Source: an uncultured Acidimicrobiales bacterium (GTDB taxonomy: Bacteria > Actinomycetota > Acidimicrobiia > Acidimicrobiales > SZUA-35). Taken from it: a DNA stretch of 64,000 nt. This document shows, in pieces, positions 28,387-48,113 of this stretch. A program made the position numbers and the translations under genes. Numbering within the stretch: the stretch's first letter is position 1; every line of letters begins with the position of its first letter. Location of the stretch: NCBI GenBank assembly GCA_937922785.1, contig CALAJQ010000017.1:1-64000 (forward strand). Direction: 5' to 3'. The notes under the pieces were generated by a model. It had not been told where the DNA came from, did not search any database, and saw nothing but the letters and a program-made list of their open reading frames with translations.

Positions 28387-29358
28387 TTAGGTGAGTGGTG
28401 CCGCTATGTGGACCATTGCATCCCCCTGGTTCACTATGGGATCTAGGTTTAGTCCAATTACTACTCCGGTAATTGGTGCATTGATGCGGCTTAACCGGTG
28501 GCCAAACGTATTGTGCAGTTCGCCCATTATTTGGCCCTTGCTGACCGAGTCGCCCGGGCTGACAGTGAGCTGGGCGACCCCGCTTCGTCGAGCCCTGACC
28601 CACTTGGAACTACGGCTGAGGAAGTTGTCCGAATCAGTTCTAATATCGCTCGGATCGGGATCAATCATCTCCAAGTCAGCCAAAACCCGCAGCACGCCCC
28701 GAACTCCTATCCGTATCGATTCAGAGTCGAATCGCCAAGCCTCGCCCGCTTCATACAGCAGGACAGCAGCTCCGGCCTCGGCGGCCGCCTGACGGAGCGA
28801 GCCATCTCTAATGGAAGCGTGCAACAAGACCGGAGCGCCAAAGGAGTTGGCGAAGCGGGCGGTTTGTTCGTCGTCAAGGTTGCACCGAATTTGTGGCAAG
28901 TTGGTTCGGTGGGCCGACCCGGTATGAAGGTCGATGCCGAACGTGCATCGACTTACGATTTCGTTCATGAACAGATTGGCGATCCGGCTGCCCAACGAAC
29001 CCCGGGCTGAGCCAGGGAACAACCTGTTCAGATCTCGCCTGTCGGGCAGGTAGCGGGTTCCGGCCACGAATCCGGGAAGGTTCACCACTGGTACCGCGAT
29101 CACGGTGCCAGCGAGAGTGCGGGGGTTTAGCTTTGTCATCACGCGTCGAATGATCTCGATTCCGTTTAGCTCATCGCCGTGAATCGCGGCGCTCATCCAA
29201 ATCGTTGGCCCGTCGCTGGCGCCGTGGAACACTCTGACCGGAAGCGACAGCGGAGATCCAGTGACCGTAAGAGCGACCGGTAGTTCTATTTCGCTTCTGG
29301 TGCCAGCCTTGACAGAGAATGAGCCAATTTCAAACGGCGGTCGAGTGCTTGCCTTCAT
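28387..29358 (-). CDS. Succinylglutamate desuccinylase/aspartoacylase family protein
   Basis: SAAIHGDELNGIEIIRRVM; FGIDLHTGS; start 29358 overlaps the upstream HAD stop (ATGA). Confidence 0.9.
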   Translation of the reverse strand: MKASTRPPFEIGSFSVKAGTRSEIELPVALTVTGSPLSLPVRVFHGASDGPTIWMSAAIHGDELNGIEIIRRVMTKLNPRTLAGTVIAVPVVNLPGFVAGTRYLPDRRDLNRLFPGSARGSLGSRIANLFMNEIVSRCTFGIDLHTGSAHRTNLPQIRCNLDDEQTARFANSFGAPVLLHASIRDGSLRQAAAEAGAAVLLYEAGEAWRFDSESIRIGVRGVLRVLADLEMIDPDPSDIRTDSDNFLSRSSKWVRARRSGVAQLTVSPGDSVSKGQIMGELHNTFGHRLSRINAPITGVVIGLNLDPIVNQGDAMVHIAAPLT

Positions 29359-30029
29359 GCGTCCAGCCCCAGTGTCTGCGCAATCGAATCCCACGCCGAG
29401 GTGGCGTTCGCTATGTCGAACCACCTGCTGGGAATCCCGCACGCCTCGGCACCAGTTACATTCTTGGGTTGGTCATCAATAAAGAGAACCTTGTCTGCGC
29501 TTACGCCGATGATGTCTAACGCTCGGGAGAAGGCGCGCCTATCGGGCTTCAAGATGCCGGTGTCAGAACAATCCACCACATGGTCAACCATCCCCAACAG
29601 CTCGACGTCGTGCTCCCACTCAGTCCCGTGAAAAGAGCGCATATCGTTGGTAAGCACCGAAACACCAAAGCCAGCATCTAGCGCAGATGCCACCACCGAC
29701 ATTGCCTCGGGTCTGACTATCTCGGGAGTAGCTGGGTCAAACAGCAGTCGCATGTAGTCCTGAAGTGACATTTCGATTCCTGCTGCTTTACCAACGTCGG
29801 CCGCCCTAGTTGCCCAGTACTCAGGTTCAGATACGCCTTCATCGGCCACCAAGCGCTGCCAAAGGGGATCGGTCTCGGGTGCGATAGGGCCGAGCCATTC
29901 AAACGTTCCTGGATCGAGACCTAAGCGCGATTCGGTCAGGAAGTGAAGCTCAACCGGATTGAGTAAACACACCCCGCCGAAATCCAGCAACAGTACTTCG
30001 ACGTCTTGGATCGGGTCAGAAGTGCTCAT
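29355..30029 (-). CDS. HAD-family hydrolase
   Basis: VLLLDFGGV...VSVLTNDM...ILKPDRRAFSRAL...VLFIDDQPKNVTGA. Confidence 0.9.
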   Translation of the reverse strand: MSTSDPIQDVEVLLLDFGGVCLLNPVELHFLTESRLGLDPGTFEWLGPIAPETDPLWQRLVADEGVSEPEYWATRAADVGKAAGIEMSLQDYMRLLFDPATPEIVRPEAMSVVASALDAGFGVSVLTNDMRSFHGTEWEHDVELLGMVDHVVDCSDTGILKPDRRAFSRALDIIGVSADKVLFIDDQPKNVTGAEACGIPSRWFDIANATSAWDSIAQTLGLDA

Positions 30030-30031
30030 GG

Positions 30032-30808
30032 CTAACCGGTGTATCCGAGCCGGGACGAGGTCACACGCGATAGGGCAATTACTGCGTCGGTGACTGCCTG
30101 GTGTTGGGCATCTATTCGTTCGGCGGGGCCAGCGACGCTCATGGCCGCAATCGTCATACCGCTGGCATCACGAATTGGGGCAGCAATGGAAACAATCCCT
30201 ATCTCAGACTCATGACGGTTCTCCGAGTAGCCCCTTCGCCTTATTAGTGCGAGTTGTTTCTTTAGTTCCGGTACCGAAGTAATCGTGTGGGCGGTCCGCG
30301 CTGGTAAGACCCAGCTCTTTAGCACCCGGTCACGTAGCGGCGGTGCAGCAAAGGCCAGCAACGCTTTCCCAGATCCAGTGCAGTGGGCATCGTTGCGGCG
30401 GCCCATATCGGCGAAGAAGCGAAGCGTGTGTGGACTATCGAGCCGCTCCACATAGACCACTTGGCGGCCATCTAACACACCCACTTGAACTGTCTCTCCA
30501 GTTCGGTTGCGTAGTTCGGTCATTGGGAGCAGTAACGCCTCGTGTAATCCCCGTTGAGTAGGAGCGGCCGCCGCCAGGTCAAACATTGCAAGACCCACGC
30601 CGTAGCGTCCGTTTTGGTGTTGTTCCAGCATGGCTGAATCAACCAGGGTGCTCAGAATCCTGTGCACGCTTGACTTGGAGAGTTCAAGATGGTTCGCAAG
30701 TTCAGTAACCCCCCATGATGGATGTGAGGCCGTAAATGCTTTCAGGACCCTCGCCGCGTTAGCCACAGAGGACAAGCGATTGTTGCTCACGAGAACGCTC
30801 TCACACAC
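30032..30808 (-). CDS. IclR-family transcriptional regulator (start 30808 or GTG 30790)
   Basis: SSVANAARVLKAFTASHPSWGVTELANHLELSKSSVHRILSTLVDSAML and IclR effector domain. Confidence 0.93.
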   Translation of the reverse strand: MCESVLVSNNRLSSVANAARVLKAFTASHPSWGVTELANHLELSKSSVHRILSTLVDSAMLEQHQNGRYGVGLAMFDLAAAAPTQRGLHEALLLPMTELRNRTGETVQVGVLDGRQVVYVERLDSPHTLRFFADMGRRNDAHCTGSGKALLAFAAPPLRDRVLKSWVLPARTAHTITSVPELKKQLALIRRRGYSENRHESEIGIVSIAAPIRDASGMTIAAMSVAGPAERIDAQHQAVTDAVIALSRVTSSRLGYTG

Positions 30809-30888: not shown

Positions 30889-31797
30889 ATGGGGATCTCG
30901 CGGTTAAGCCATGTTGATATCACGGTGCCAGATCTCGACCTGGCCGCCGCCTACTACACCGAGGTGCTCGGCCTGGACATAACCGAACGCACTGATGATC
31001 GGCTGTTTCTGAAGTGTTGGGATGAGCGAGACCATCATTGTTTGGCAATCCGTCACGACACGCGAGTCGGGCTTGACCGATTCTCTTTCAAGGTTGAGTA
31101 CTCCGATGACTTAGACAAGTTCGAGTCAAAGATCGAAGCTGTCGGCTATCCCGTCCAAAGAGTTGCCGACGGGGAAGAGATAGGGCAGGGGGAGTCAATT
31201 CGATTCGAGATTCCTTCAGGCCATGAGATGGAACTGGTGCACAAGGTGACGAAGGTCGGCGGCCGGCTGCCGCTAGTTAATCCTCCGCCGATTCCTTACG
31301 GGCTGGTCGGCATCGCTCCGCCCCGAATAGATCATCTTTTGGTGCACGCCGAAGAAGTGCCAGAGGCTGCCCGGTTTTTCCAGGACATTTTGGACTTTCG
31401 CCTGACCGAACAATTGCTGGATGGAGGCGGCCATCAGACCATTGCCTTCCTGGAGCGATCGGCTAAACCTCACGACATCGCTTTTGTGCAAGGACCGAAC
31501 GGTGCGTTGCATCACTTCTCGTTCTGGCTGGATGACTGGGATCATGTTCGCAGGGCGGCTGACATCCTGGCCTACAACGGTGTCACCATCGACGTTGGGC
31601 CCACCCGCCACGGCTTGACGAGAGGCTCAACCATCTATTTCTTCGACCCAATGGGAACCCGAAACGAAGTGTTTTCTGGTGGCTACCGGCCTGACCCGGA
31701 CTTTCCCACAATTACTTGGACTGATTCTGAGGCCGGTAGAGCAGTGTTCTACTACGAGGGCGTTCTCAACCAGAGATTTGCGACGGTGCACACATAA
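30889..31797 (+). CDS. Extradiol ring-cleavage dioxygenase, catechol 2,3-dioxygenase (XylE-like)
   Basis: XylE-type layout; IDHLLVH, HHFSFWLDDWD, KPHDIAF, GPTRHGLTRGSTIYFFDPMGTRNEVF. Confidence 0.92.
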   Translation: MGISRLSHVDITVPDLDLAAAYYTEVLGLDITERTDDRLFLKCWDERDHHCLAIRHDTRVGLDRFSFKVEYSDDLDKFESKIEAVGYPVQRVADGEEIGQGESIRFEIPSGHEMELVHKVTKVGGRLPLVNPPPIPYGLVGIAPPRIDHLLVHAEEVPEAARFFQDILDFRLTEQLLDGGGHQTIAFLERSAKPHDIAFVQGPNGALHHFSFWLDDWDHVRRAADILAYNGVTIDVGPTRHGLTRGSTIYFFDPMGTRNEVFSGGYRPDPDFPTITWTDSEAGRAVFYYEGVLNQRFATVHT

Positions 31798-32711
31798 TGT
31801 CTGGAATATTGCGTCTCTCTCATGCCGAAGTTCGGGTTCCGGATCTCGAACTGGCCTTAGCCTACTACAGCGAAGTGGTCGGCTTGGTAGTCACCCACTC
31901 AGAAGCGGACAAGGCCTACCTGAAGGGCTGGGATGAACACCAACACCACTCGCTGGTTCTAGCTGCCGCTCCGACCTATGGCCTGAACAGCCTGGCTTTC
32001 AAGGTTGTTGAACGCTCCGAACTAGACCGGCTACAGGACCGTTTGGTTGCAGCTGGCATTTCGACCAGTCGTCACGAGCCAGGTGAACTAGGCGAGGCAT
32101 CAGGAGAAACCGTTCGATTCCTGGCGCCAAGCGGGCACACGATCGACCTCGAACATGGGCAAGGCCAAGTTGGGAACGGTCTTCCCCTGCTCAACCCTCC
32201 GCCTGCTCCAGACAATTTGGTTGGGATGCACCCACCTCGGCTGGATCACATCTTCTTGTTGTGCGAAGACGTCGACGCAATCACGGCCTTCTTCACTGAT
32301 GTGCTTGAGTTTCGCCTGACCGAACAGATCATGGCCGACGATGGGCATCAGCTCACAACTTTCTTAGAACGGACTCATACGCCTCACGACATTGCTTTCC
32401 TGACCGGACCCGATGGGGGATTCCATCATCTTGCGTATTGGGTTGACGAATGGAATGATCTGCGCACCGCCGCAGACACCTGTGCCTACCACGGCATCCA
32501 GATTGACGCTGGGCCGACGCGCCACGGTGCGACGAGGGGTTGCGGTTTGTACTTCTTTGACCCGGCTGGCAATCGAAATGAGGTTTATACGGGTGGCTAC
32601 CACTTCGATCCAGACGACGAACCGACCACCTGGACCGAAGCTGAAATGGGTCGCGCAATATTCACCTACAAAGGTCAAGTCCAGCAGAGCTTTATGTCGG
32701 TGCATTCATGA
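31797..32711 (+). CDS. Extradiol ring-cleavage dioxygenase, tandem XylE-like paralog
   Basis: LDHIFLLCEDV, HHLAYWVDEWND, TPHDIAF, GPTRHGATRGCGLYFFDPAGNRNEVYTGG. Confidence 0.92.
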   Translation: MSGILRLSHAEVRVPDLELALAYYSEVVGLVVTHSEADKAYLKGWDEHQHHSLVLAAAPTYGLNSLAFKVVERSELDRLQDRLVAAGISTSRHEPGELGEASGETVRFLAPSGHTIDLEHGQGQVGNGLPLLNPPPAPDNLVGMHPPRLDHIFLLCEDVDAITAFFTDVLEFRLTEQIMADDGHQLTTFLERTHTPHDIAFLTGPDGGFHHLAYWVDEWNDLRTAADTCAYHGIQIDAGPTRHGATRGCGLYFFDPAGNRNEVYTGGYHFDPDDEPTTWTEAEMGRAIFTYKGQVQQSFMSVHS

Positions 32712-33799
32712 GTGATTCAACCGATCGTCGGGACGCCCCGCTATACCTGGCCCGCTATCGCGAGCGTGAGGCATCCCGGACCGAGTCCCAGTCAGACGCC
32801 AAGAACGAGCAATCTAAGAACCCACAATCTCAGAGCCAGCAGGACCCTCTCTATTTGCGCCAGTTCCGTCACCGCGCCGACGAGGTCGAGGAGCCGCTTT
32901 GGAAGCGAGCAAGCCTTAGCGTCCAGCAGTCACTTACTGAAGAGAACCGGAACAAAGAGATCTCTGCCCCTGCCGCGGCGGCTAGACAGCTTCTGAACGA
33001 CGTGTACCTGATTCGACACGGCGAAACTCAAGGCTACTCAACAGACTCTGGCCTGACTCCCCAAGGTGTCTGGCAAGCCCACACCTATGGCCACACAATG
33101 GCGAAGCGGGTTAAGTCGGGCGAAACAATTGTGTTCCGACACGCTGCAACTAACCGAGCCCGTGAGACCGCCGAGCAGATTCACCGGGGTCTCCACGACG
33201 GTCTGGCTCAGTATGAGAAGTCGGTCAAAATTGTGGAACCCGAACCGGCCGATGAGTTTCGCAACTTCGGGTTTGCGTCTCCAGATGGACTGAAGGATGT
33301 CACGGCCGCTTTCCGTGAGTACCACTCGATGCTGGAAGGGTTCGAGAGAACGGCCAAAGGCGATCGGCCGCTATGGCTGGTGGAGATGGACCGCTTTTGG
33401 CGAACTCAGCAAGGTGGCGCCGATCCGATTCAACATTGGTTGACCATTCCGCTGCTTCATTTCGAGCCCCCGTCCATGACGGTCCGACGCTTCTGGGCCG
33501 GGATCAATCGGTTGTCAGGTGAGTTTCCGGGCGCCCGTCTGGCGATCGCCACTCACTCTGGCTGTATTCGCGCCTTCGCAGTGTCAGCGCTGGGTTATGA
33601 CCCAGGGGAGCCGTACAACATCGAACATGTGCGGGTGAAGATGTTGGGCGATCCAGATAGCAGGCCAGACAGCGCAAACGGGAGTGATGCAACCGTGGCC
33701 TATCGCAACCGAGTTCAGGAAGTAAAGGTCCCCAACATCAATCAGCTGCCGGCCTGGTCAGTGGCTGACGATTGGCCTGGATTTACCGAGGGGTCATGA
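32708..33799 (+). CDS. Histidine phosphatase (phosphoglycerate mutase-like) family protein with N-terminal low-complexity extension
   Basis: VYLIRHGETQGYSTDSGLTPQGVWQA; FRHAATNRARETAEQI; LAIATHSGCIRAF. Confidence 0.88.
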   Translation: MSDSTDRRDAPLYLARYREREASRTESQSDAKNEQSKNPQSQSQQDPLYLRQFRHRADEVEEPLWKRASLSVQQSLTEENRNKEISAPAAAARQLLNDVYLIRHGETQGYSTDSGLTPQGVWQAHTYGHTMAKRVKSGETIVFRHAATNRARETAEQIHRGLHDGLAQYEKSVKIVEPEPADEFRNFGFASPDGLKDVTAAFREYHSMLEGFERTAKGDRPLWLVEMDRFWRTQQGGADPIQHWLTIPLLHFEPPSMTVRRFWAGINRLSGEFPGARLAIATHSGCIRAFAVSALGYDPGEPYNIEHVRVKMLGDPDSRPDSANGSDATVAYRNRVQEVKVPNINQLPAWSVADDWPGFTEGS

Positions 33800-33800
33800 G

Positions 33801-34973
33801 ATGTGTGAGGCGTGTCCGGTTATCGATTGGGAGAAAGAGCTTCCAACCGTCAGATCATTTACAGCGAGCAGGGTGGATTCAGAAATGACCGATCACATCG
33901 TTTGGTTCGATAGGTATGACCGAGACCTTCACAAAGAATTCGTTGGTGGCAAGAACTCGAGCCTCGGCGAAATGATGATGGCCGAGCTGCCGGTGCCGCC
34001 CGGGTTTGCAATCACTACCAACGCCTACACCCAGCTTTGGAACAACCGTGAGCTAGTGGAAGGTGTCAATGAACTACTGCGCGGCATAGATCATGATGAC
34101 TATGTCGCCAACATGAAGACCTCTGAAGCGATCCGAGCTTTGATCGAAGCTGAGCCGGTGCCCGATGACGTGGCAACCGATATTCGCGAGGCGTATGAGG
34201 CGTTGTGTGCCCATTGTGGGGTCGAAGATCTACCGGTTGCTGTTCGGTCATCCGCAACTGCTGAAGATCTGCCCGATGCGTCCTTTGCCGGCCAGCAAGA
34301 CACCTATCTATGGATCAAGTCTGCCGACCAGGTGATTGACCACGTACGCCGGTGTTGGTCCTCGATCTTTACTGACCGGGCCATTGCCTACCGCCACGGG
34401 ATGGGTTATCTACACACATCGATAGCAATGTCGGTTGGGGTTCAAAAGATGATCGACCCGATCGCTGCGGGTGTGGCCTTCACGCTCAACCCGACAAACG
34501 GAGACCGCTCGCAGGTTGCAATCGATGCAGCATGGGGGCTTGGTGAATCGGTCGTGTCAGGTGAAGTTACGCCAGACAATTTCCTCGTGGACAAGGTCTT
34601 GCGCGAAGTAGTCAAACGAGAGATCTCTGACAAACACATCGAATATGCGCTTACGCCCGATGGAGTGGTTGAGAAGCTCGAGGTTGACGAAGAGCGGCGC
34701 ATGGCCGCGTCAGTGACCGATGAAGATCTTGTGGGGATTGCCATCCTGGCTCGCCGGGCCGAGAAACATTACGGGTGTCCTCAAGATGTTGAGTGGGCGC
34801 TCGATCGGCATTTGCCGGTGGGGGAGAATGTGGTGATGCTGCAAAGCAGACCCGAGACCGTCTGGTCGCAAAAAGAAGTTAAGTCAGTTTCAAAGGGGGG
34901 TGACGTCATGTCGTCGATCGTTTCGACGCTGGTTTCACCGTTACACAACAAAACACAACAAGGGGACCAGTAA
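33801..34973 (+). CDS. PEP/pyruvate-binding (ATP-binding) subunit of a split PEP-synthase-like phosphotransferase (PpsB/CreH-like); start may be 33885
   Basis: FVGGKNSSLGEMMMAELPVPPGFAITTNAY; AVRSSATAEDLPDASFAGQQDTYL; ends after the ATP-binding domain, with no PEP TIM barrel. Confidence 0.85.
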   Translation: MCEACPVIDWEKELPTVRSFTASRVDSEMTDHIVWFDRYDRDLHKEFVGGKNSSLGEMMMAELPVPPGFAITTNAYTQLWNNRELVEGVNELLRGIDHDDYVANMKTSEAIRALIEAEPVPDDVATDIREAYEALCAHCGVEDLPVAVRSSATAEDLPDASFAGQQDTYLWIKSADQVIDHVRRCWSSIFTDRAIAYRHGMGYLHTSIAMSVGVQKMIDPIAAGVAFTLNPTNGDRSQVAIDAAWGLGESVVSGEVTPDNFLVDKVLREVVKREISDKHIEYALTPDGVVEKLEVDEERRMAASVTDEDLVGIAILARRAEKHYGCPQDVEWALDRHLPVGENVVMLQSRPETVWSQKEVKSVSKGGDVMSSIVSTLVSPLHNKTQQGDQ

Positions 34974-36769
34974 TGGCAGATAGCAGATTTCCAAGCCCGT
35001 TCGAGCTAGAAGGGCCAGAGGGTGTCGAAGGCTGGGAGGAGCTCTATCCATATTCGGTGAGCTTCGGCGAGGCCCGCCGCGACTATGAGGAGAATCGCTT
35101 CTGGTTCTGGGACTCAATGCACTGGGGTAAGGCGCTGACACCGTGGGACTCAACATTTATGGAAATGGCTCTGGCTTCCCTAAGTCAGATGAACAGCCGG
35201 CACTACCTGATACCACCAGCGGACGGCGTGGACTTCCGCGTACTTTATGGTTACGCGTTCCTGTCTCCAGTCGGAGTTGACCCGTCGAAAATTGAGGGCC
35301 GGGTTCCTCACTTCATGGAACGAGCTGGTCACTACTTCGGTAACTGGGACTCGCTTTATGAGAACTGGCTGGTGAAGGTCAAGGGCACAATCGATGAGAT
35401 TCAAGCTCTCGACTTCAGCCCACTTCCTGAAATGGAAGATCTCGAAGTGATCACCAGTGGTTCAGGAATGGGAACCGGCCACAAGCTCCAGTCCGAATAC
35501 AACAAGTTCAAGGATCTGATTCTCCAAACCTGGAACTATCACTTTGAGTTTCTAAACCTTGGTTACGCCGCCTACCTTGACTTCTTCGGGTTCTGCAAAG
35601 AGGCCTTCCCCTCTATTCCCGACCTTGGTATCGCCAAGATGGTCGCCGGTGTTGAAGTAGACCTATTCCGGCCAAACGAGGAGCTAAAGCTGTTGGCTCA
35701 AAAGGCAATAGACCTTGGCTTGGCCGATGCCTTCGCTGACCCAGCCAACGTATCGCTGACTGGCGACGCCGGCGCAGAGTTCCAGACTGCGTGGGACGTT
35801 GCCTCTGACCCTTGGTTCAACTTCACTTCCGGCAACGGCTTCTACCACTTCGACAAGATCTGGAAAGAACACCCTGAGATCCCATATGCATTCTTGAACG
35901 ACTACATCGTGAAGATTCAGGCTGGTCAAGATATCAGTAGGCCGATCGAGGCGATCACTGCCGAGCGTGATCGTATTGTTTCTGAATACCGTGACTTACT
36001 AGGAACCGATGAAGATCGAGAGGCCTTCGATGGCAAACTGGGTCTGGCCCGAGTTGTGTTCCCATATGTTGAGAACCACAACTTCTACATCGAACACTGG
36101 ACAATGTCTGTTGTGTGGCGCAAGCTGCGCGAGCTTGGTGCCACTTTGGCCAAGGACGGTCTGTTGGGCTCTGAGGATGACCTGTTCTACCTACGTCGTG
36201 ACGAAGTCGGCGAAGTTCTTTGGGACTACTACTCGAACTGGGCAGTCAACTCGCCAACGGCCAGCGCAGCCATCATGGGACCTAAGATCGCCCGCCGTCG
36301 TGAGATCCATCAGAAGCTGTCTGAGTGGAGCCCACCAAAGGCCCTGGGTGAGCCACCAGAAGTCATCACCGAGCCTTTCACCATCATGTTGTGGGGCATA
36401 ACCAGCGATTCGGTGTCGAACTGGCTGGGCTCTGACAGTGACGAAGAAGGTGTGATCAAGGGAATGGCGGCTTCTCCTGGTGCGGTTGAGGGCATTGCCC
36501 GACTTGTATTCGATCCAGAAGATGTGAATGACCTTCTGGATGGTGAGATATTGGTGGCGCCGATTACAGCGCCAAGCTGGGCTCCGGTTTTCCCCAAGAT
36601 TCAGGCCTGTGTTACCGATATAGGTGGGATCATGAGTCACGCTGCGATCGTTTGCCGCGAGTATGGAGTCCCCGCAGTTACTGGAACCGGATTTGGAACC
36701 AACAAAATCAAGACGGGCGACCGTATCCGGGTCGACGGCTCAGCCGGAACCGTCACGATCATTAGCTAG
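34973..36769 (+). CDS. PEP-utilizing mobile-domain subunit of the same system (PpsA/CreI-like)
   Basis: 598 aa. C-term phosphohistidine swivel domain CVTDIGGIMSHAAIVCREYGVPAVTGTGFGTNKIKTGDRIRVDGSAGTVTII; long N-terminal domain unlike the PEP synthase core. Confidence 0.82.
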   Translation: MADSRFPSPFELEGPEGVEGWEELYPYSVSFGEARRDYEENRFWFWDSMHWGKALTPWDSTFMEMALASLSQMNSRHYLIPPADGVDFRVLYGYAFLSPVGVDPSKIEGRVPHFMERAGHYFGNWDSLYENWLVKVKGTIDEIQALDFSPLPEMEDLEVITSGSGMGTGHKLQSEYNKFKDLILQTWNYHFEFLNLGYAAYLDFFGFCKEAFPSIPDLGIAKMVAGVEVDLFRPNEELKLLAQKAIDLGLADAFADPANVSLTGDAGAEFQTAWDVASDPWFNFTSGNGFYHFDKIWKEHPEIPYAFLNDYIVKIQAGQDISRPIEAITAERDRIVSEYRDLLGTDEDREAFDGKLGLARVVFPYVENHNFYIEHWTMSVVWRKLRELGATLAKDGLLGSEDDLFYLRRDEVGEVLWDYYSNWAVNSPTASAAIMGPKIARRREIHQKLSEWSPPKALGEPPEVITEPFTIMLWGITSDSVSNWLGSDSDEEGVIKGMAASPGAVEGIARLVFDPEDVNDLLDGEILVAPITAPSWAPVFPKIQACVTDIGGIMSHAAIVCREYGVPAVTGTGFGTNKIKTGDRIRVDGSAGTVTIIS

Positions 36770-36795
36770 CCAACACAGACGAGGAGTTAGTCGCC

Positions 36796-38058
36796 ATGAT
36801 GACCCAAGAAGAAAACGACCTTCTTACCCAGGTTGGTCCGGGCACGCCTATGGGCGATGTGCTCCGGCACTACTGGTATCCGGTTGCGTTTGCCCGAGAG
36901 CTTGAAGAGTTCCCTGTTAAGAGCGCTCGATTACTAGGTGAGAACTGGGCTGTGTTCAAAACCGGCGACGGGGGATACGGCATCGTCGATGAGAAGTGCC
37001 CCCATCGCGGCGCCTCTTTGGTTTATGGCATCGTCGAGAAGGACGGGCTTCGCTGCGGCTACCACGGATGGAAGTTTGATACCGACGGCCAATGCGTTGA
37101 GATCCTGGCAGAGCCCGACAGTTCACCAAAATTCCGTGAGAGTTGTGGTGTTCGAAACGGCCAGGCTCAGGAGCTTGGCGGGCTGGTTTGGGCATACATC
37201 GGTGACGGGCCAGCGCCAGAGCTGCCCCGTTATGAGGCCTATGTGATGGATGGCATCCGCGATATTGGCCATGCTGTAATTCCGTGCAACTGGCTCCAGA
37301 TCATGGAGAACGCTGTTGACCCCTATCACGTAGAGGCTCTGCACGGGAACTACTTCGAGTTCATCGCAGCTCATCAAGGCACGCCGATGCCTGAGTCATT
37401 TGGCGGCAACAAGCACGAGAAGGTTGCGTTCGACAATTTCGAGCACGGCATTATCAAGCGGCGCCTACTGGTTGGCCAATCTGAAGAAAGTGACGATTGG
37501 AAGATTGGTCACCCTCTGGTATTCCCATACAAGATGTGGGTTGGCGGCAATGGCGTCTACCAGATGCAGATTCGGGTTCCCGTTGACGACACCCATACCC
37601 ACGTCATGTTCTATAGCGTTCATGCTCCCGACGGCGTACCGGTAGCCGAAGGCGAAGATCGTTGCGTCGACTATGACATTGAGTGGGTCGACGCCGACGG
37701 CAAGTACATCGTTGACTACATCGAGGGCCAAGACATCATGGCTTGGGTGACCCAAGGCGAGGTTGCTGACCGCACGATCGAACACATCACCAAGAGTGAT
37801 GTTGGGGTGCTGGCGTGTCGTCGAATGTTCCGAGACGCAGTCGACGCGGTCGCTGACGGCAACGATCCGATTGCTGTGGTGCGCGAGCCTCATGAAGTAA
37901 TCAAGCTGCCTCTCGAAGGGTCCAAGTTTGGCCGTGGCGCGCAGTTTGCAACCGATTGGATCAACGACGGGTCTATGCGTTACAGCCCGCTAGCTGATGA
38001 GCTGAAGGCGTTACACATTGCCGCAGCTGACGAGCGCGCCAAGATAGCCGACGCCTAA
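36796..38058 (+). CDS. Rieske (2Fe-2S) aromatic ring-hydroxylating oxygenase, phthalate-dioxygenase-like
   Basis: Rieske CPHRGASLVYGIVEKDGLRCGYHGW; mononuclear Fe site ENAVDPYHVEALHGNY. Confidence 0.94.
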   Translation: MMTQEENDLLTQVGPGTPMGDVLRHYWYPVAFARELEEFPVKSARLLGENWAVFKTGDGGYGIVDEKCPHRGASLVYGIVEKDGLRCGYHGWKFDTDGQCVEILAEPDSSPKFRESCGVRNGQAQELGGLVWAYIGDGPAPELPRYEAYVMDGIRDIGHAVIPCNWLQIMENAVDPYHVEALHGNYFEFIAAHQGTPMPESFGGNKHEKVAFDNFEHGIIKRRLLVGQSEESDDWKIGHPLVFPYKMWVGGNGVYQMQIRVPVDDTHTHVMFYSVHAPDGVPVAEGEDRCVDYDIEWVDADGKYIVDYIEGQDIMAWVTQGEVADRTIEHITKSDVGVLACRRMFRDAVDAVADGNDPIAVVREPHEVIKLPLEGSKFGRGAQFATDWINDGSMRYSPLADELKALHIAAADERAKIADA

Positions 38059-38840
38059 TGCCGATCGATCATGTCAAGTGGGCTGAGTATCTGATTGCGG
38101 GAGTCGACGAGCGACGCGAACTTCAGGCAATTACTAAGCAGGTTGATGAGTTATCCATCGACGATGCTTACGCGATCCAAGCTGCGCTGCTAGAAATCCA
38201 GCTAGGTCGGGGAGACAAGTTGGCCGGGGCCAAACTCGGTCTGACGTCTTCGGCTAAGCAGGAACAAATGGGAGTGTCGGAGCCGGTTTATGGCTGGGTT
38301 CCAGCGTCTTCGGTTCTGGCCGACGGAGTCTCGGTAGAGCTAACCGAACTGATCCATCCTCGTTGTGAGCCGGAGTTTGTCTTTATCTTGGGTGAATCGC
38401 TTGCCGGCCCTGGGGTGACCGTGGCCGACGTGTTTGACGCAACCGACAAGATTGTGGGCGGAATCGAAGTCATTGACTCTAGATATGAGGCATTCTCGTT
38501 CACGCTGGCTGACGTAATAGCCGACAACACCTCAGCGGCTCGGGTCGCTATAGGTTCTGAAGGCATCAAGCCAGGTGAGGCTGATCTAACTACCCTCGGT
38601 TGTGTCTTCGAAGTGGACGGCGTTGTTACCGGGACCGCAACCGGCGCCGCCTTGCTGGGTGATCCAGCAGCGTGTGTTGCAATGTTGGCAAACCACCTTG
38701 GCAAGTACGGCCAACAACTCGAGGCAGGTTGGCTTGTGATGGCCGGGGCCGCCACCGATGCTCGCCCGTTGCTGGACGGCACGGTTGCTACTGCCCGCTA
38801 CTCGCATTTGGGTTCTGTTTCCATCGCAGGAAAGACGTAG
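38058..38840 (+). CDS. 2-keto-4-pentenoate hydratase / 4-oxalocrotonate decarboxylase family
   Basis: AGAKLGLTSSAKQEQMGVSEPVYGWV; HPRCEPEFVFIL; EVIDSRYEAFSF. Confidence 0.93.
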   Translation: MPIDHVKWAEYLIAGVDERRELQAITKQVDELSIDDAYAIQAALLEIQLGRGDKLAGAKLGLTSSAKQEQMGVSEPVYGWVPASSVLADGVSVELTELIHPRCEPEFVFILGESLAGPGVTVADVFDATDKIVGGIEVIDSRYEAFSFTLADVIADNTSAARVAIGSEGIKPGEADLTTLGCVFEVDGVVTGTATGAALLGDPAACVAMLANHLGKYGQQLEAGWLVMAGAATDARPLLDGTVATARYSHLGSVSIAGKT

Positions 38841-38844
38841 TTGT

Positions 38845-39069
38845 ATGCCTTTGGTTAATGTTCACATGGCTTCGGGGCGCACGCCCGAACAGAAGAGGGC
38901 ACTGATGGACGCCATAACCCAAGCCATGGTTGAACACATCGGCGCTCCGAAGTCTTCAGTTCGGGTCTGGATCGATGAGTTTCCAAACACCGACTTCATG
39001 GCCGGAGGCGAACTGTTGGCCGACAAGCAGGCTCGATTGGCTCGCGAGGCAGCTCAGCAATCAGACTGA
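38845..39069 (+). CDS. 4-oxalocrotonate tautomerase family protein
   Basis: MPLVNVHMASGRTPEQKRALMDAITQAMVEHIGAPKSSVRVWIDEFP with Pro-1. Confidence 0.93.
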   Translation: MPLVNVHMASGRTPEQKRALMDAITQAMVEHIGAPKSSVRVWIDEFPNTDFMAGGELLADKQARLAREAAQQSD

Positions 39070-39073
39070 GGTA

Positions 39074-40291
39074 ATGACAACACCCATCTTGGCGGGAATG
39101 CGAATCGTTGAGGGGTCGGCTTTTGTGGCTGCGCCGTCGGCCTCTATGTCTCTGGCATTGCTCGGCGCAGACGTTATTCGCTTTGACCAAATCGGCGGTG
39201 GGATTGATTACCACCGGTGGCCCCTAACCGAGGCCGGCGACTCGCTCTATTGGGCTGGCCTGAACAAGTCGAAACGATCCATCGCCGTGGATCTCCGTAG
39301 CGAACGGGGCCGTGAAATCGTCACGGCGCTGGTTGCTGCTCCGGGTCCTGACGCGGGGATGTTTGTTTCGAACTTTCCATCAAAGGGGTGGTTGAGCTAC
39401 GAAGCTTTGAAACAGAATCGTGAAGATCTGATCATGGTGACGATTACGGGCAACCCTGATGGGTCAAGTGCGGTCGACTACACGGTCAATTCGGCGGTTG
39501 GATACCCGCACGCAACGGGGCCGGCGGACTCGTCGGTGCCGACAAACCATGTGCTTCCAGCCTGGGACGTGATTTGTGGTCAAACCGCAGCCCTAGGACT
39601 TCTTGCCGCCGAGCGGCATCGGTCGCGGACCGGGGAGGGCCAGCATGTGACTCTGGCTCTGTCCGACACCGCAATCTCGACTGTTTCCAACTTGGGTCAT
39701 GTCGCTGAAGCCCAACTTAACCGGGAGCAAAGAGCGCGGCTTGGCAACGATCTTTACGGGGCTCTTGGCAGAGACTTTCCAACTAACGACGGCGAGCGCG
39801 TGATGCTGGTGGCTATCTCGGACAAGCAATGGACGGGGTTGCTCAAGGCGACCCAGTGCTCTGACTCAATTGCGAAGCTGGAACAACAGCTCGGGGCAGA
39901 TTTCTTTGACGAAGGTCAGAGGTTTGAGCACCGAGATGCAATCTGTGAAGAGCTGTCGCGGTGGGTAGCTAGCCACTCTTTAGCCGAGGTCGCCAGGAGC
40001 TTTGATGACCACCGAGTTTGTTGGGGCAGATACCAGTCTTTCATCGATCTGGTCGACGATGATCCTCGTTGCTCGGAGCAGAACCCGATGATGCAAACAA
40101 TCACTCACGAGCGAATTGGTGAACATCTTGCAGCAGGATCACCATTGGCGTTTTCCAAAGTTGATCGTCGGGCTTTGTCTACAGCACCCGTGCTGGGGCA
40201 ACACACAGAGGAGGTTCTTGTTGAACTTCTAGGGCTCTCAACAGGGGAAATAGCCACTTTGCACGATTCTGGTGTGGTGGCCAGCCCATAG
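39074..40291 (+). CDS. CaiB/BaiF-type class III CoA-transferase
   Basis: MRIVEGSAFVAAPSASMSLALLGADVIRFDQIGGGIDYHRWPL...GLNKSKRSIAVDL. Confidence 0.93.
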   Translation: MTTPILAGMRIVEGSAFVAAPSASMSLALLGADVIRFDQIGGGIDYHRWPLTEAGDSLYWAGLNKSKRSIAVDLRSERGREIVTALVAAPGPDAGMFVSNFPSKGWLSYEALKQNREDLIMVTITGNPDGSSAVDYTVNSAVGYPHATGPADSSVPTNHVLPAWDVICGQTAALGLLAAERHRSRTGEGQHVTLALSDTAISTVSNLGHVAEAQLNREQRARLGNDLYGALGRDFPTNDGERVMLVAISDKQWTGLLKATQCSDSIAKLEQQLGADFFDEGQRFEHRDAICEELSRWVASHSLAEVARSFDDHRVCWGRYQSFIDLVDDDPRCSEQNPMMQTITHERIGEHLAAGSPLAFSKVDRRALSTAPVLGQHTEEVLVELLGLSTGEIATLHDSGVVASP

Positions 40292-40697: not shown

Positions 40698-41108
40698 CTA
40701 GTGGTCAAGACTGACTGTTCCGTCCTGTCTGACCGTTACTGTCTGACCCTCAACGAGCGCTTCTAGTTCCTTTAGTGCTACTAGTACCACTGGACATTGC
40801 GTGCCATACAAGGTGTCGGCCACGAGCGCGCCTGCAGTCAGATTGATGTCGGCCTTGGCCACAATCAGGCCCGCTGGGCCGGTACCCAACCTGATCGATT
40901 CACCAAGGACTCCGGGTGTGCCAGCAGAACCTCGAGACCCGGGCATTGACACAATCCGCCCTGTCATGAAGGCTCCAACCTGAGGGTGTGCTCGGTCAAT
41001 AATGGCGCCAGTGACGGGATCCAGTCCGCCCCAGAAACTCAGAGGTGCGGTGAGCCGGAGCACGGGGCCCGACGCTTCGCCGCGGTTGAGGATTCGGCCG
41101 GAGATCAC
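40698..41108 (-). CDS. Aconitase X swivel (DUF126) subunit
   Basis: VISGRILNRGEASGPVLRLTAPLSFWGGLDPVTGAIIDRAHPQVG; GTG start 41108 overlaps the large-subunit stop (GTGA). Confidence 0.88.
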   Translation of the reverse strand: MISGRILNRGEASGPVLRLTAPLSFWGGLDPVTGAIIDRAHPQVGAFMTGRIVSMPGSRGSAGTPGVLGESIRLGTGPAGLIVAKADINLTAGALVADTLYGTQCPVVLVALKELEALVEGQTVTVRQDGTVSLDH

Positions 41109-42397
41109 GACCAATCCTCCTGACGGTGTACAAATCCCCGAATCGCTGATTCTACGCATTCGCTTTGATTGCCAAACGCCACCGGTACCCCGAGAATACC
41201 GGGAGCGTAGTAGGCCCACTTGGCGGAACTAGTCATAACGAGGCCGTGTATTCCTGTTGTCAGCGGAGTGAAGTAGGTGCAGGTATCGAGCGCAACTTGA
41301 ACACCAGCGCTGGTTAGCACTGCGTCCCATCCACGCAACTGAAGTTCGGTGAACACGGCCCGACTGGTCGTGACGATCATTGAGATGCCGTCGGCCACCC
41401 GTCGACCTCCGAATTGCCCGATAAGAGCTTCAAACTCGCTAACCGAGAAATGCGGGGTGCCCAGGCAAACCGCACTCAGTGGCCCATTCGCGTCTGTAGT
41501 CAGGTTTTTGCGTACACGATGCACATCTGAATCGGTCAGGGCCGTCTGCCGTTTTGGTGTTCGTCCGCCTGTGGCCTCGTCCAAAGTCGCTGCCTCAGGG
41601 GTTATGCCGATTGCATGGAACATTTCAACAGCCCCCGACGTGGCGGCCGCTGCCGCAATTGCCTTGAGCTGGTCTTCATCGGCGCTCTCCAGTCCGTGGA
41701 TTGCAGGAATATCGGCCGCCGCCATTTCACCGATGATGATTCCCAGCAGGTGATGGAAGCTGGGATCTCCTAACACGGAGTCAGACAAGTTCTCCAAGTG
41801 GAAGACGTGGGTCGCCAGCCGACCCTCGTCGGTGTGCAGACCAGCGAAGGGAACGCGGCCAACAATTGCGCCGCATATATCGAGGAAGTCTCCATACTTG
41901 TTTGTCCGAGCTCCCAGCACCGAGTTGTAGAACGAGACGGCATTCGATTCTGATCCAATGATTTGAGAACCGAACTCGGGTCGGCCGTCGAGTTGGTGAT
42001 AGGGGGCGCAGCTCCATGTCGGTTGGCAACCCAACTCTTCGTAGATCTGCATCAACCGTCTAGCACCGTGAGTCTCGGTTGGATATGAGCTATGCGGTCG
42101 CAAGTTCGGGTGAGCAAAGTCGATCAGGCTTGAGTTGGTTTGGGTCGGCACAGAGACGGCGCCGCTCTCGCGTAACAAGAACTCGGCAAAGTCAAGAGAT
42201 ACCTGGCCCGCATAGAAGCCGCTTCCCACGTGAGCGAAAGAAACATCTACGAAACTGGTTGCCTCCGCAACCGTGGCAGCAGCAACCATCATCTTCATGG
42301 CCAGTTGTTTGGCCTTGCCCTCGGACCCGGCAAGTAGTTCAGTTTCGTAATCTGTTAACTCAAGCACCTTAAGTGCTCCTGATTCTGCCGACGACAT
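41105..42397 (-). CDS. Aconitase X catalytic (DUF521) subunit
   Basis: FAHVGSGFYAGQVSLDFAEFLLRESGAVSVPTQTNSS; CAPYHQLDGRPEFGSQIIGSESNAVSFYNSVLGARTNKYGDF. Confidence 0.88.
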   Translation of the reverse strand: MSSAESGALKVLELTDYETELLAGSEGKAKQLAMKMMVAAATVAEATSFVDVSFAHVGSGFYAGQVSLDFAEFLLRESGAVSVPTQTNSSLIDFAHPNLRPHSSYPTETHGARRLMQIYEELGCQPTWSCAPYHQLDGRPEFGSQIIGSESNAVSFYNSVLGARTNKYGDFLDICGAIVGRVPFAGLHTDEGRLATHVFHLENLSDSVLGDPSFHHLLGIIIGEMAAADIPAIHGLESADEDQLKAIAAAAATSGAVEMFHAIGITPEAATLDEATGGRTPKRQTALTDSDVHRVRKNLTTDANGPLSAVCLGTPHFSVSEFEALIGQFGGRRVADGISMIVTTSRAVFTELQLRGWDAVLTSAGVQVALDTCTYFTPLTTGIHGLVMTSSAKWAYYAPGILGVPVAFGNQSECVESAIRGFVHRQEDWS

Positions 42398-42563: not shown

Positions 42564-43439
42564 ATGCAGGTGCCAGCACCGTTCGAATACGAGCGGGCAA
42601 CCAGCGTGGAACAAGCAATTGCACTCCGCGCAAAACTGGGCGACGAGGCGAGATTCATCGCCGGTGGTCACAGTCTGTTGCCCATGATGAAGCTACGGCT
42701 CGCCAATCCGGAACACCTGATCGATATCAACGATCTTGAGGAACTGTTCTACATCAAGGAAGAAGCAGGCGAGATTCGAATTGGCGCAATGAGTCGTCAC
42801 CGCGACCTGCTTGACTCAGAACTTCTTTATCAGCACTTCCCAATCTTCCGAGATGCCGAGAAGCTAATTGCTGACCCCGTAGTGCGAAACCGCGGCACCA
42901 TCGGTGGGTCGCTTTGCCAAGCCGACCCGGCCGAAGACCTTTCTGCCGTTTGTGCCACTTTGGGGGCAACGTGTGTGATCAAGTCTGAAACGGGCGAGCG
43001 AGTGGTCGACATGAAAGAGTTCCACGTCGGCCCTTATGAAACCGCTGTAGGCGACGCCGAGATGCTCACCGAGATCAGGATTCCCACTGCCTCAAATGGT
43101 GGCAGCGCGTATGAAAAGGTTGAGCGCCGAGCCGGTGACTGGGCCGTTGTTTCATCGGGAGCGTCGGTTTGGATGGACGGTGACACGATCACCGCAGGCC
43201 GTGTAGGCCTGGCCGCAGTTGGAGACAACACCACTCAACTTGATGGAGTAGCCGAACTTCTGGCCGGCAAGACGGCCTCCGAAGAGCTCTACACCCAGGC
43301 GGGAGAACTGGCCGCTGCCAGCTGTAGCCCCCAGACTGACAACCGAGGAACCGAAGCGTACAAACGACATTTGGCAATGGAACTCACCCGGCGGTCACTT
43401 CGCCGAGCAGTGGCCCGAGCCCAGGGCCAGGAGGCTTGA
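42564..43439 (+). CDS. coxM: Carbon monoxide dehydrogenase medium (FAD) subunit
   Basis: ARFIAGGHSLLPMMKLRLANPEHLIDI; TIGGSLCQADPAEDLSAV. Confidence 0.95.
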   Translation: MQVPAPFEYERATSVEQAIALRAKLGDEARFIAGGHSLLPMMKLRLANPEHLIDINDLEELFYIKEEAGEIRIGAMSRHRDLLDSELLYQHFPIFRDAEKLIADPVVRNRGTIGGSLCQADPAEDLSAVCATLGATCVIKSETGERVVDMKEFHVGPYETAVGDAEMLTEIRIPTASNGGSAYEKVERRAGDWAVVSSGASVWMDGDTITAGRVGLAAVGDNTTQLDGVAELLAGKTASEELYTQAGELAAASCSPQTDNRGTEAYKRHLAMELTRRSLRRAVARAQGQEA

Positions 43440-43440
43440 A

Positions 43441-43920
43441 ATGCAAGTAAACATGAACATCAACGGCGAAGCCGTAAGCGAAGATGTAGAAGCCCGGACA
43501 CTATTGGTTCACTTCATCCGAGACGATGTGGGGCTTACCGGCACCCACTGGGGTTGCGACACCAGCAACTGTGGAACCTGTGTAGTCCTCATTGACGGTG
43601 AACCAGTGAAGTCCTGCACAACCTTGGCAGCAATGGCCAGCGGTCACGACATCACCACGGTTGAAGGCCTTGAAGTAGACAACGTGCTCGACCCAGTGCA
43701 AGAAGGCTTCATGCAGTGCCACGGCCTGCAATGTGGCTTCTGTACCCCCGGCATGATGCTTACTGCCCGCGCGCTGCTTAACAACAATCCAAACCCAAGC
43801 GAGGAAGTGATACGGGAAGCAATCTCGGGTCAGATCTGCCGCTGTACCGGCTATTCAACAATCGTTAGGTCCATCCAATGGGCCGCAGAACACGGGACGC
43901 CTGTCTCGGTGGGGAACTAG
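43441..43920 (+). CDS. coxS: Carbon monoxide dehydrogenase small (2Fe-2S) subunit
   Basis: GCDTSNCGTCVVLIDGEPVKSCTTLA; CGFCTPGMMLTARALL; CRCTGY. Confidence 0.96.
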   Translation: MQVNMNINGEAVSEDVEARTLLVHFIRDDVGLTGTHWGCDTSNCGTCVVLIDGEPVKSCTTLAAMASGHDITTVEGLEVDNVLDPVQEGFMQCHGLQCGFCTPGMMLTARALLNNNPNPSEEVIREAISGQICRCTGYSTIVRSIQWAAEHGTPVSVGN

Positions 43921-43923
43921 AAC

Positions 43924-46299: not shown

Positions 46300-46317
46300 G
46301 GCGTACCCTCTCCGTAT

Positions 46318-47220
46318 ATGACTGCACAAAGCCGCCATGCCGCCCGCAAGGGCGAACTGATAGAACAAGGCGTGCCATTCGTTCAGGCCACCGTCGTTCG
46401 GGCCCAGTGCCCGACGTCGGCTCGGCCTGGCGATGCCGCCATCGTTTTGGCCGACGGATCAATCGAAGGGTTCATCGGTGGCCAATGCGCCGAAGGCTCA
46501 GTTCGGGTGGCATCGGTGCCTTTGTTGGAATCGGGCTCTACTTTGTTGCTCCGGATATTGCCCGAAAGTAGCGACGAATATCCAGACGCTGAAGGCGCAA
46601 TCACTGTTGTGAACGAGTGCTTATCTGGGGGAGCGATAGAGATCTTCCTTGAGCCCAACCTGCCAGCGCCGCGTCTGGCCATTGTTGGCAGTACACCGAT
46701 TGCTGATGCCCTGGCCCAATTCGGGGCGCCGCTCGGTTTTGGAGTTGACGTAACAGCAAGTGGGGTTCCCGAAGTCCGAGGCAGCCTGGCTGTACTTATC
46801 TCAAGCCACGGCCGTAACGAGCCCGAGACGATCCGTGCCGCACTAGATGCTGGTGTCGGCTTCATTGGTTTGGTTGCAAGTCCTAAGCGGGGCAGTGCAG
46901 TGTTGGCCGAGTTAGAGCTATCCAGTGAAGAGCTCAAACGGGTTCATTCGCCCGTCGGTTTCGATATTGGAGCGAAGACCGCCGAAGAGATCGCAATCTC
47001 GATTCTGGCCAGTGTTGTTCAGGCCGTTCGCCAAGACGGCTTGAAGCCGGCTCAAACCGAAGCGCCAACTCGGCCCGAGTCAGCGATCGATCCGGTGTGC
47101 GGCATGACTGTCATGGTTGCTCCTGACACATCCCACCTTGAGGTAGACGGCACCGACTACTGGTTCTGTAACCCAGGCTGTCGAACTCGATACGCCGAAG
47201 AAGTCGGCGTCGCCGGGTGA
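46318..47220 (+). CDS. XdhC/CoxF-family protein with C-terminal YHS domain
   Basis: XdhC-like N-term (QATVVRAQCPTSARPGDAAIVLADGSIEGFIGGQCAEGSVR) and DPVCGMTVMVAPDTSHLEVDGTDYWFCNPGCRTRYAEE. Confidence 0.88.
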   Translation: MTAQSRHAARKGELIEQGVPFVQATVVRAQCPTSARPGDAAIVLADGSIEGFIGGQCAEGSVRVASVPLLESGSTLLLRILPESSDEYPDAEGAITVVNECLSGGAIEIFLEPNLPAPRLAIVGSTPIADALAQFGAPLGFGVDVTASGVPEVRGSLAVLISSHGRNEPETIRAALDAGVGFIGLVASPKRGSAVLAELELSSEELKRVHSPVGFDIGAKTAEEIAISILASVVQAVRQDGLKPAQTEAPTRPESAIDPVCGMTVMVAPDTSHLEVDGTDYWFCNPGCRTRYAEEVGVAG

Positions 47221-48113
47221 CATTCAGCAGTAGGCAAGAACTGGTCAACGCGCTTGAGGGCGTCGACTACCTGGTGGACGAAGGCCTGGCCACAGCACTG
47301 TTCCTGGCGCAGTCGATCCGTCAGCCCTTGCTGCTTGAAGGCGAACCTGGCGTTGGCAAGACAACCGCAGCCAAGGCGATGGCCTCGGTTCTGGGTGGTC
47401 CGCTCATCCGTCTCCAGTGTTATGAAGGCGTCAGTGCTAACGAGGCCCTGTACGAGTGGAACTACTCTCAGCAGCTTCTGGCTATTCAGCTTGCTGGTCA
47501 GGCTGATGACGGGTCTAGCAAGCCCTGGTTGGCGGCTGATGACCTATTCACCGAGGACTACCTGCTTGACCGGCCGCTGCTGAAAGCAGTCCGTCATCCT
47601 GGGCCAGCGCCTGCGGTGTTGCTGATTGATGAGATCGACCGGTCCGATGATGAGTTCGAAGCCTTGCTGTTTGAATTCCTGGGTGAACAGTCTGTGACGG
47701 TTCCCGAAATCGGAACCTTCTCAGCAGTCGTCGACCCAGTGGTGATCCTGACCTCCAACCGGTCCCGTGAGCTGCATGATGCGCTTAAGCGACGGTGTCT
47801 TTACCACTGGATCGAGTTTCCAAGCTTGGAACGAACCGCCGAAATCGTCCGCCGCAATGTCGATGCTGCCGCTCACCCTCTGGTCACAGCCGCAACCGCC
47901 TTTGTGTCTGACGCTCGAGCGCTCGATCTGGATAAGCCGCCTGGTGTGGCCGAGGCAATAGATTGGGTTGGGGCTTTGTCTGCGTTGGGCGTCACAAATC
48001 TTGATGACAGCGAAGCTCGGTCAACTTTAAGCGCTGTTATCAAAACTCCCGATGACATTCGGACGGCAAACGAAGCGATGGACGCCGGGGAACTCTCGGT
48101 CTCTGTTTCCTAG
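47217..48113 (+). CDS. coxD: MoxR-family AAA+ ATPase (CoxD-like)
   Basis: LLLEGEPGVGKTTAAKAMASVLG; LLIDEIDRSDDEFEALLFEFL. Confidence 0.93.
   Translation: MTFSSRQELVNALEGVDYLVDEGLATALFLAQSIRQPLLLEGEPGVGKTTAAKAMASVLGGPLIRLQCYEGVSANEALYEWNYSQQLLAIQLAGQADDGSSKPWLAADDLFTEDYLLDRPLLKAVRHPGPAPAVLLIDEIDRSDDEFEALLFEFLGEQSVTVPEIGTFSAVVDPVVILTSNRSRELHDALKRRCLYHWIEFPSLERTAEIVRRNVDAAAHPLVTAATAFVSDARALDLDKPPGVAEAIDWVGALSALGVTNLDDSEARSTLSAVIKTPDDIRTANEAMDAGELSVSVS

Follow-up and report, generated by a model that had tools for sequence, protein, structure and literature searches.

A split phenolic dikinase encoded with a Rieske oxygenase in the Acidimicrobiales: a candidate phosphate-first route for aerobic phenol catabolism

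Relation to described systems

The known fates of phosphorylated phenols are carboxylation, as in the Pps and Hpe systems, and side-chain oxidation by a cytochrome P450, as in the Cre system. Here we describe an operon of an uncultured Acidimicrobiales bacterium in which a kinase of the same family is encoded between a histidine phosphatase and a Rieske oxygenase. The operon occupies positions 30889–39069 (+ strand) of a stretch of 64 000 nucleotides (hereafter the window) on contig C17 (CALAJQ010000017.1) of a 4.9 Mb actinobacterial genome, the nearest relatives of which in a synteny scan are Acidimicrobiales metagenome-assembled genomes (MAGs). From 30889 onwards it encodes two catechol 2,3-dioxygenases, the histidine phosphatase, an ATP-grasp protein, a swivel protein, the Rieske oxygenase, a DmpH-like protein and a 4-oxalocrotonate tautomerase, with neighbouring genes overlapping by 1–4 bases or separated by at most 26 bases. 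The four open reading frames picked out in a preliminary description of the sequence (32708–33799, 33801–34973, 34973–36769 and 36796–38058) have exactly these boundaries, and the kinase pair is flanked, as stated there, by the phosphatase and the Rieske gene, near two extradiol dioxygenases.

The 4-cresol (Cre) pathway of Corynebacterium glutamicum comprises the CreHI kinase, a P450 with its ferredoxin and reductase, and a phosphohydrolase, and is an oxidative precedent on an aryl phosphate. It resembles the route considered here in being aerobic and in phosphorylating, oxidizing with O2 and then dephosphorylating; it also holds the nearest kinase relatives, a pair from Rhodococcus oxybenzonivorans (CreH-like, 53% identity; CreI-like, 52%). 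The Cre loci used for comparison are on Rhodococcus plasmids (L137 and L138) and were assigned by gene content, as were the genes there taken to be CreD and CreJ. In the window, however, a Rieske oxygenase stands in place of the P450 and a histidine phosphatase in place of the HD protein, the kinases belong to separate clades and the end point would be meta-cleavage of catechol. No relative of the Cre-type P450, the HD phosphohydrolase, or the ferredoxin, reductase and alcohol and aldehyde dehydrogenases of the 4-cresol set is encoded within the window.

PpsABC and phenylphosphate carboxylase (Ppc), which act in anaerobic phenol degradation, are represented by Azoarcus sp. KH32C (L136). The split kinase is of the same family (PpsA-like, 47%; PpsB-like, 52%), but the Azoarcus gene order is A-B-C, whereas that of the window is B-A, followed by oxygen-dependent enzymes; the window encodes no relative of the CBS-domain protein PpsC, of UbiD and the Ppc subunits, or of UbiX. 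The preliminary description had already remarked on the lack of a UbiD-type carboxylase and of a P450. The Hpe system for hydroxyphenylethanones (HpeHI, HpeCBA and HpeD) likewise uses a two-component phenolic dikinase, and HpeI (9goj) provides the best PDB match. The identity to Hpe-context kinases is 41–44%, and the biotin carboxylase and HAD phosphatase of Hpe contrast with the Rieske oxygenase and histidine phosphatase of the window, in which no relative of HpeCBA is encoded. The next enzyme of the Hpe pathway uses only the phosphorylated substrate (PMC9618137).

Two further systems bear on the oxygenase. Aniline dioxygenase (AtdA1–A5, NpaA1–A5) is a mechanistic analogue, in which ATP-dependent tagging precedes Rieske oxidation to catechol and a hydrolase acts on the tagged compound (PMC11335346); its ligase is glutamine-synthetase-like and its tag glutamyl, and the Rieske superfamily is the sole shared part. 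The phthalate and isophthalate dioxygenases of Comamonas testosteroni KF1 have the closest solved fold and the same iron and cluster ligands, but are only ∼25–30% identical in the structural alignment, and the window has no cognate reductase gene alongside. A pathway joining phenyl phosphate to a Rieske enzyme was not found in the open-access papers searched, in agreement with the preliminary description, which knew of none. The parts belong to known families; within the literature searched, what is new is their combination and the implied Rieske substrate.

The split dikinase and its conserved neighbourhood

The 390-residue ATP-grasp subunit (PpsB/CreI/HpeI-like; 33801–34973, + strand) carries a PPDK_N domain only (378.7 bits), and its true start may be an internal ATG ∼28 codons in. 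The 598-residue substrate-binding and swivel subunit (PpsA/CreH/HpeH-like; 34973–36769, + strand) carries only the mobile domain of phosphoenolpyruvate (PEP)-utilizing enzymes (residues 523–592) and reaches 823 bits on NF006150, for which the cut-off is 650. The PEP/pyruvate TIM-barrel domain was found in neither frame by a Pfam domain search, and with each subunit limited to its single domain the pair lacks the pyruvate barrel of PEP synthase; domains and lengths therefore bear out the PEP-synthase-like split first proposed. The division into ATP-grasp (∼40 kDa) and substrate-binding/swivel (∼70 kDa) subunits without this barrel is that of PpsAB, CreHI and HpeHI. The best PDB sequence match of the ATP-grasp subunit (E = 2.3e-80) is 9goj, the structure of HpeI (PMC12167813). 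The swivel motif, TDIGGIMSHAAIV, fits the pattern T/SxxGGxxxH with Met at the position of the regulatory Thr of PEP synthase, as described for phenolic kinases (PMC12167813), and, like CreH and PpsA, has a Ser preceding the His. The predicted phospho-acceptor, H556, is invariant in the alignment.

A model of the swivel subunit matches rifampin phosphotransferase (RPH) over nearly the whole length (Foldseek; 602–616 columns, E = 5e-17, TMq 0.42–0.58), with a large root-mean-square deviation that would be consistent with a swivel of domains; the match agrees with a middle domain related to the rifampin-binding domain of RPH, as in this kinase family, and a like similarity to RPH has been reported for HpeH. 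Identity as RPH was rejected on profile score and not on the tree, the RPH model giving 284.3 and 118.7 bits (the latter for the swivel subunit) against a cut-off of 999. A PEP synthase or other dikinase of central metabolism was also rejected, the PEP synthase equivalogs being below cut-off.

Reference clades for the kinase tree were set by operon context, using the ppc operon of Azoarcus KH32C, Rhodococcus clusters with a Cre-type P450, and Hpe-type clusters of Rhizobium and Rhodococcus JS3073. The clade of the window is sister to the Cre clade (support 100/99 for the pair, 100/100 for Cre and 99/98 for the Rieske-linked clade) and the Azoarcus phenylphosphate synthase (PpsA) joins next (99/94); a quick 58-row tree agrees. 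The deepest placements sit on long branches and are less certain. Because family score, PDB match, motif and tree concur, the pair is, judged by sequence, a member of the two-component phenolic dikinases (PpsAB, CreHI and HpeHI) in a clade of its own. The kinship with PpsAB and CreHI suggested at the outset is thereby upheld, and the pair groups with Cre and Pps kinases in the tree, while its profile scores set it apart from RPH and PEP synthase. PpsAB is a phenol kinase and HpeHI accepts phenol (PMC12167813).

Scanning genome contigs recovered 80 loci. Those with a PpsA-like protein at least 59% identical to that of the window have its arrangement; those at 54–57% encode a P450, an HD protein, an aldehyde dehydrogenase, a short-chain dehydrogenase/reductase and often a ferredoxin and reductase. 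Each gene was counted only in loci with room for it. With window-type kinases in the fetched loci, PpsB lies upstream in 42 of 42, the histidine phosphatase is present in 37 of 40 and the Rieske gene follows directly in 45 of 45, so that synteny with the Rieske gene, on which the preliminary description had staked its interpretation, is conserved. The sole exception to this adjacency, genome G290, was fetched later, and the three loci departing from the phosphatase pattern carry this gene and both dioxygenase genes at another place in the locus or contig. P450, HD and UbiD genes are absent from all 40 long (at least 12 kb) Rieske loci, while the 45 Cre loci have a P450 in 45, an HD gene in 44 and a catechol 2,3-dioxygenase or histidine phosphatase of the window's kind in none.

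Orthologs of the Rieske oxygenase (at least 56% identity) and of the phosphatase occur, clustered together, in the identical 16 of 296 Acidimicrobiia genomes; the sample is even across the class, and the genomes are related and span at least four families. Contig ends divide the clusters of G292 and G278. Dozens of genomes hold full-length orthologs (57–86% identity) with gene order preserved. Such clusters are present in Acidimicrobiia, Nocardioides (among them N. agariphilus KCTC 19276, cluster L061), Nitriliruptoraceae, Pseudonocardiaceae, Kineosporia and other Actinomycetota, as well as in one MAG labelled Acidobacteriota, and the gene set is strongly conserved in marine and soil actinobacteria. 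Synteny across several actinobacterial classes led us to reject a chance neighbourhood. Apparent exceptions were also dismissed: G292 does not have a Rieske gene without a kinase, its cluster being divided over contigs C112 and C159 (L147 and L202), and Kineosporia and the Pseudonocardiaceae MAG, which seemed to lack the phosphatase and dioxygenases, carry them elsewhere on the same contig.

In two genomes the kinase has been exchanged. G249 (L142) retains the order of two dioxygenases, phosphatase, kinase and Rieske gene, but the kinase is a distant phenolic pair in the order A-B (G249:C1, 8468–11379). In G290 (L201) a kinase nesting inside the Rieske-linked clade (100/100) is found without a Rieske gene, beside UbiX, a UbiD protein and a HAD phosphatase. 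Judged from tree and gene order, kinases move between the Rieske module and a phenylphosphate-carboxylase-like module. Both modules would then start from one aryl phosphate, plausibly phenyl phosphate, and these swaps suggest phenol as the kinase substrate.

Operons of the Acidimicrobiia at L201 (G290:C7, 1720–8620), L145 and L146 combine a split phenolic kinase with UbiX, a HAD phosphatase and a UbiD protein close to phenylphosphate carboxylase beta; at L152 the UbiD, HAD and kinase genes alone were seen. In these four operons neither PpsC nor the other Ppc subunits found in Azoarcus were detected; they look like a further phosphate-first module in the class. Among L179, L177/L178, L180 and L181, G322 and G522 have a second, divergent phenolic kinase copy close to the Rieske cluster, and G588 and G399 have two PpsA-like genes 4–9 kb apart.

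Proposed route and alternatives

Taking together the genes observed, their domains and catalytic residues, the phylogeny and the linkage, we propose, with moderate confidence, that the operon encodes an aerobic route in which phenol or a simple alkylphenol is first phosphorylated. The sister Cre clusters phosphorylate, oxidize and dephosphorylate, and here the Rieske oxygenase, histidine phosphatase and catechol 2,3-dioxygenases replace the P450, HD protein and dehydrogenases; the linkage of Rieske, phosphatase and PpsB genes, their co-occurrence, the kinase swaps and the catechol-type meta genes all argue for this proposal. The chain of phosphorylation, Rieske oxidation, dephosphorylation and meta-cleavage given in the preliminary description fits all of the comparative evidence, from which we infer the substrate and the action of the Rieske enzyme on a phosphate ester, as we do the individual chemical steps, their regiochemistry and whether oxidation precedes dephosphorylation.

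The two kinase subunits would pass the β-phosphate of ATP via H556 to the phenolic hydroxyl, yielding an aryl phosphate, AMP and Pi. Phthalate-type dioxygenases already recognize anionic aromatics, and a Rieske enzyme derived from them would bind the dianionic aryl phosphate and oxidize the ring next to the phosphate-bearing carbon. The histidine phosphatase would take off the phosphate to leave catechol, one or both catechol 2,3-dioxygenases would cut the ring, and a meta pathway of semialdehyde dehydrogenase, tautomerase, decarboxylase, hydratase, aldolase and acetaldehyde dehydrogenase would follow. We put forward tentatively, as possible but doubtful, the specific claim that an aryl phosphate is the true substrate of the Rieske oxygenase, with the phosphate as binding handle and leaving group in the conversion of phenyl phosphate to catechol. 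If true, aryl phosphates would be a new substrate class for Rieske chemistry and tagging with phosphate a general way into the aerobic catabolism of aromatics; Actinomycetota of sea and soil would share a means of degrading phenol aerobically that dispenses with the customary flavin or diiron phenol hydroxylase, and many uncultured Acidimicrobiia would have a concrete carbon source. Why phenol catabolism begins with phosphorylation has been stated to be unclear (PMC12167813), a question made testable by three downstream modules on one kinase family.

The Rieske oxygenase alpha subunit (36796–38058, + strand, 420 residues) has the phthalate/isophthalate-dioxygenase fold. Its model (mean predicted local distance difference test score 84.6; alignment made without plasmid-derived rows) is nearest to phthalate and isophthalate dioxygenases, with 7v28, 7v25 and 9ina as top Foldseek matches, and alignment with 7fjl places the CxH...CxxH cluster motif and the 2-His-1-Asp iron site with its bridging Asp. 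C68, H70, C87, H90, D175, H178, H183 and D313 are invariant in 23 orthologs. The histidine phosphatase (branch 1; 32708–33799, + strand, 363 residues; His_Phos_1, PF00300) has an N-terminal extension of ∼95 residues and an RHG motif; its candidate catalytic residues R103, H104, R150, E226 and H283 are invariant in 17 orthologs. Among the 296 Acidimicrobiia genomes, orthologs are confined to those carrying this cluster. We propose that it is the aryl phosphate phosphatase.

Catechol 2,3-dioxygenases 1 (30889–31797, + strand; 359.0 bits) and 2 (31797–32711, + strand; 340.2 bits) both exceed the TIGR03211 cut-off of 320.2 and are tandem paralogs (∼50% identical); candidate metal ligands read from the sequence of the first are H149, H208/H209 and E260. 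Downstream of the Rieske gene are a 2-oxo-3-hexenedioate decarboxylase/hydratase-like protein of the DmpH/DmpE family (38058–38840, + strand; TIGR03218 253.8 bits, below the cut-off of 350.55) and a 4-oxalocrotonate tautomerase-like protein (38845–39069, + strand; TIGR00013 63.1 bits, cut-off 56.9, scored on the longer frame 38758–39069). Related loci further encode a hydratase, aldolase, acetaldehyde dehydrogenase and semialdehyde dehydrogenase. Host contig C16 carries an aldolase above cut-off and an adjoining acetaldehyde dehydrogenase relative; for the semialdehyde dehydrogenase there is no match above the curated cut-off in the host genome. Since this meta-pathway set belongs to catechol metabolism, the substrate of ring cleavage would be catechol or a simple alkylcatechol.

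Several points weigh against the proposed route. No phosphate-binding residue was identified in the Rieske enzyme, and the cluster has no reductase or ferredoxin gene. Equivalents of R207 and R244, which bind phthalate in the C. testosteroni KF1 enzyme (PMC12445078), are not conserved in a profile alignment that is uncertain in that region, making a phthalate dioxygenase unlikely on sequence. The ATP-grasp gene of G249 is broken over several frames, through either assembly error or decay, and the UbiD protein of G290 has phenylphosphate carboxylase beta as best family, yet scores 409.6 bits, under the cut-off of 468.95. A HAD-family hydrolase encoded ahead of the operon (29355–30029, − strand; PF00702 44.7 bits) is a candidate second phosphatase. 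Of the 40 Rieske-type loci that are at least 12 kb long, 27 encode a homolog, either next to the IclR gene or at another site in the locus, and the 45 Cre-type loci encode none; conservation of this hydrolase means that assignment of the histidine phosphatase to the dephosphorylation step is not unique.

The Rieske enzyme might dihydroxylate C1–C2 of phenyl phosphate, an unlikely alternative but one to be taken seriously, placing hydroxyl and phosphate on one carbon so that phosphate is lost spontaneously to give catechol. The histidine phosphatase would then be a safety valve hydrolysing excess aryl phosphate, like the amidotransferase-like enzyme acting on γ-glutamylanilide in aniline oxidation, where the hydrolase keeps the tagged intermediate low by the same logic (PMC11335346). 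This scheme is suited both by the fold, which is of the dihydroxylating kind, and by the labelled cluster genes, among which no cis-dihydrodiol dehydrogenase was recognized. The phosphatase is, however, conserved as strictly as the Rieske gene, which an obligatory step fits at least equally, and the sister Cre clusters keep a dedicated phosphohydrolase. Weak but real matches to LigXa_C and VanA_C, families named for O-demethylases, raise instead an improbable O-demethylation of guaiacol (2-methoxyphenol) phosphate to catechol monophosphate, which would then be dephosphorylated. The product would still be catechol and the related HpeHI accepts methoxyphenols (PMC12167813), but the nearest solved structures are phthalate and isophthalate dioxygenases and no formaldehyde-handling gene was recognized among the genes examined. 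A clade kinase beside a phenylphosphate-carboxylase-like set points, moreover, to an unsubstituted para position, with which guaiacol is still compatible.

Two other schemes alter the role of the kinase. Phosphorylation could serve trapping or detoxification, the kinase and histidine phosphatase interconverting phenol and its phosphate ester, with the free phenol or some other anionic aromatic as the compound that the Rieske enzyme hydroxylates; we give this a low probability. It would accommodate a Rieske enzyme in which no phosphate pocket was identified, and such kinases have been proposed to help to scavenge substrates (PMC12167813), whereas the enzyme after the Hpe kinase takes phosphorylated substrate only (PMC9618137), free phenol lacks the anionic handle used by phthalate-type Rieske enzymes and the kinase–Rieske linkage is stricter than storage or detoxification needs. 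It is very improbable that the kinase makes a phosphoramidate from an aromatic amine in an aniline-type pathway. Desulfatiglans anilini is reported to activate aniline as phenylphosphoamidate, drawing its synthases and carboxylases from more than one gene cluster (PMC7500099), but the kinase clade here is sister to Cre-type (alkylphenol) kinases and no cluster gene points to the handling of amine or ammonia.

Electron-donor candidates and neighbouring genes

Three proteins of the host genome match PF00175: a 607-residue frame with a C-terminal reductase domain, a 485-residue membrane-type protein and a 571-residue Rieske–reductase fusion. None of the three is linked to the cluster. The fusion (L190; G000:C23, ∼37 kb) has a Rieske domain at its N terminus joined to a phthalate-reductase-like module (flavin/NAD and C-terminal 2Fe–2S), adjoins a glutathione-transferase-like gene and is a possible electron donor for orphan Rieske enzymes. 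In 14 of the 40 long loci a small Cys-rich frame (CPxCG...CxxC, often with HWWDPDR) directly follows the Rieske gene, for example at L061:13268–13522, L142:12549–12944, L066:12995–13423 and L179:10424–10684. It was found neither in the Cre loci nor in the lineage of the window, has no Pfam match and is possibly a zinc ribbon or rubredoxin-like electron carrier.

The HAD hydrolase gene and that of an IclR-family regulator (30032–30808, − strand; IclR_C 138.3 bits) precede the operon, the latter being divergent from it; an IclR relative is present, mostly divergent, in 33 of the 40 long Rieske-type loci. A family III CoA-transferase (39077–40291, + strand; PF02515 201 bits) follows in the same direction as the operon, but has only two distant matches (∼25% identity) in those 40 loci, and its membership of the pathway is uncertain. 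Adjoining it, overlapping genes (40698–42397, − strand) encode an aconitase X divided into a large subunit (AcnX) and a swivel subunit (AcnX_swivel). A molybdenum hydroxylase set of the xanthine/CO-dehydrogenase type, then XdhC and an AAA ATPase, occupies 42564–48113. Upstream, 20472–22694 encodes a 740-residue sulfatase; aryl sulfatases release phenols.

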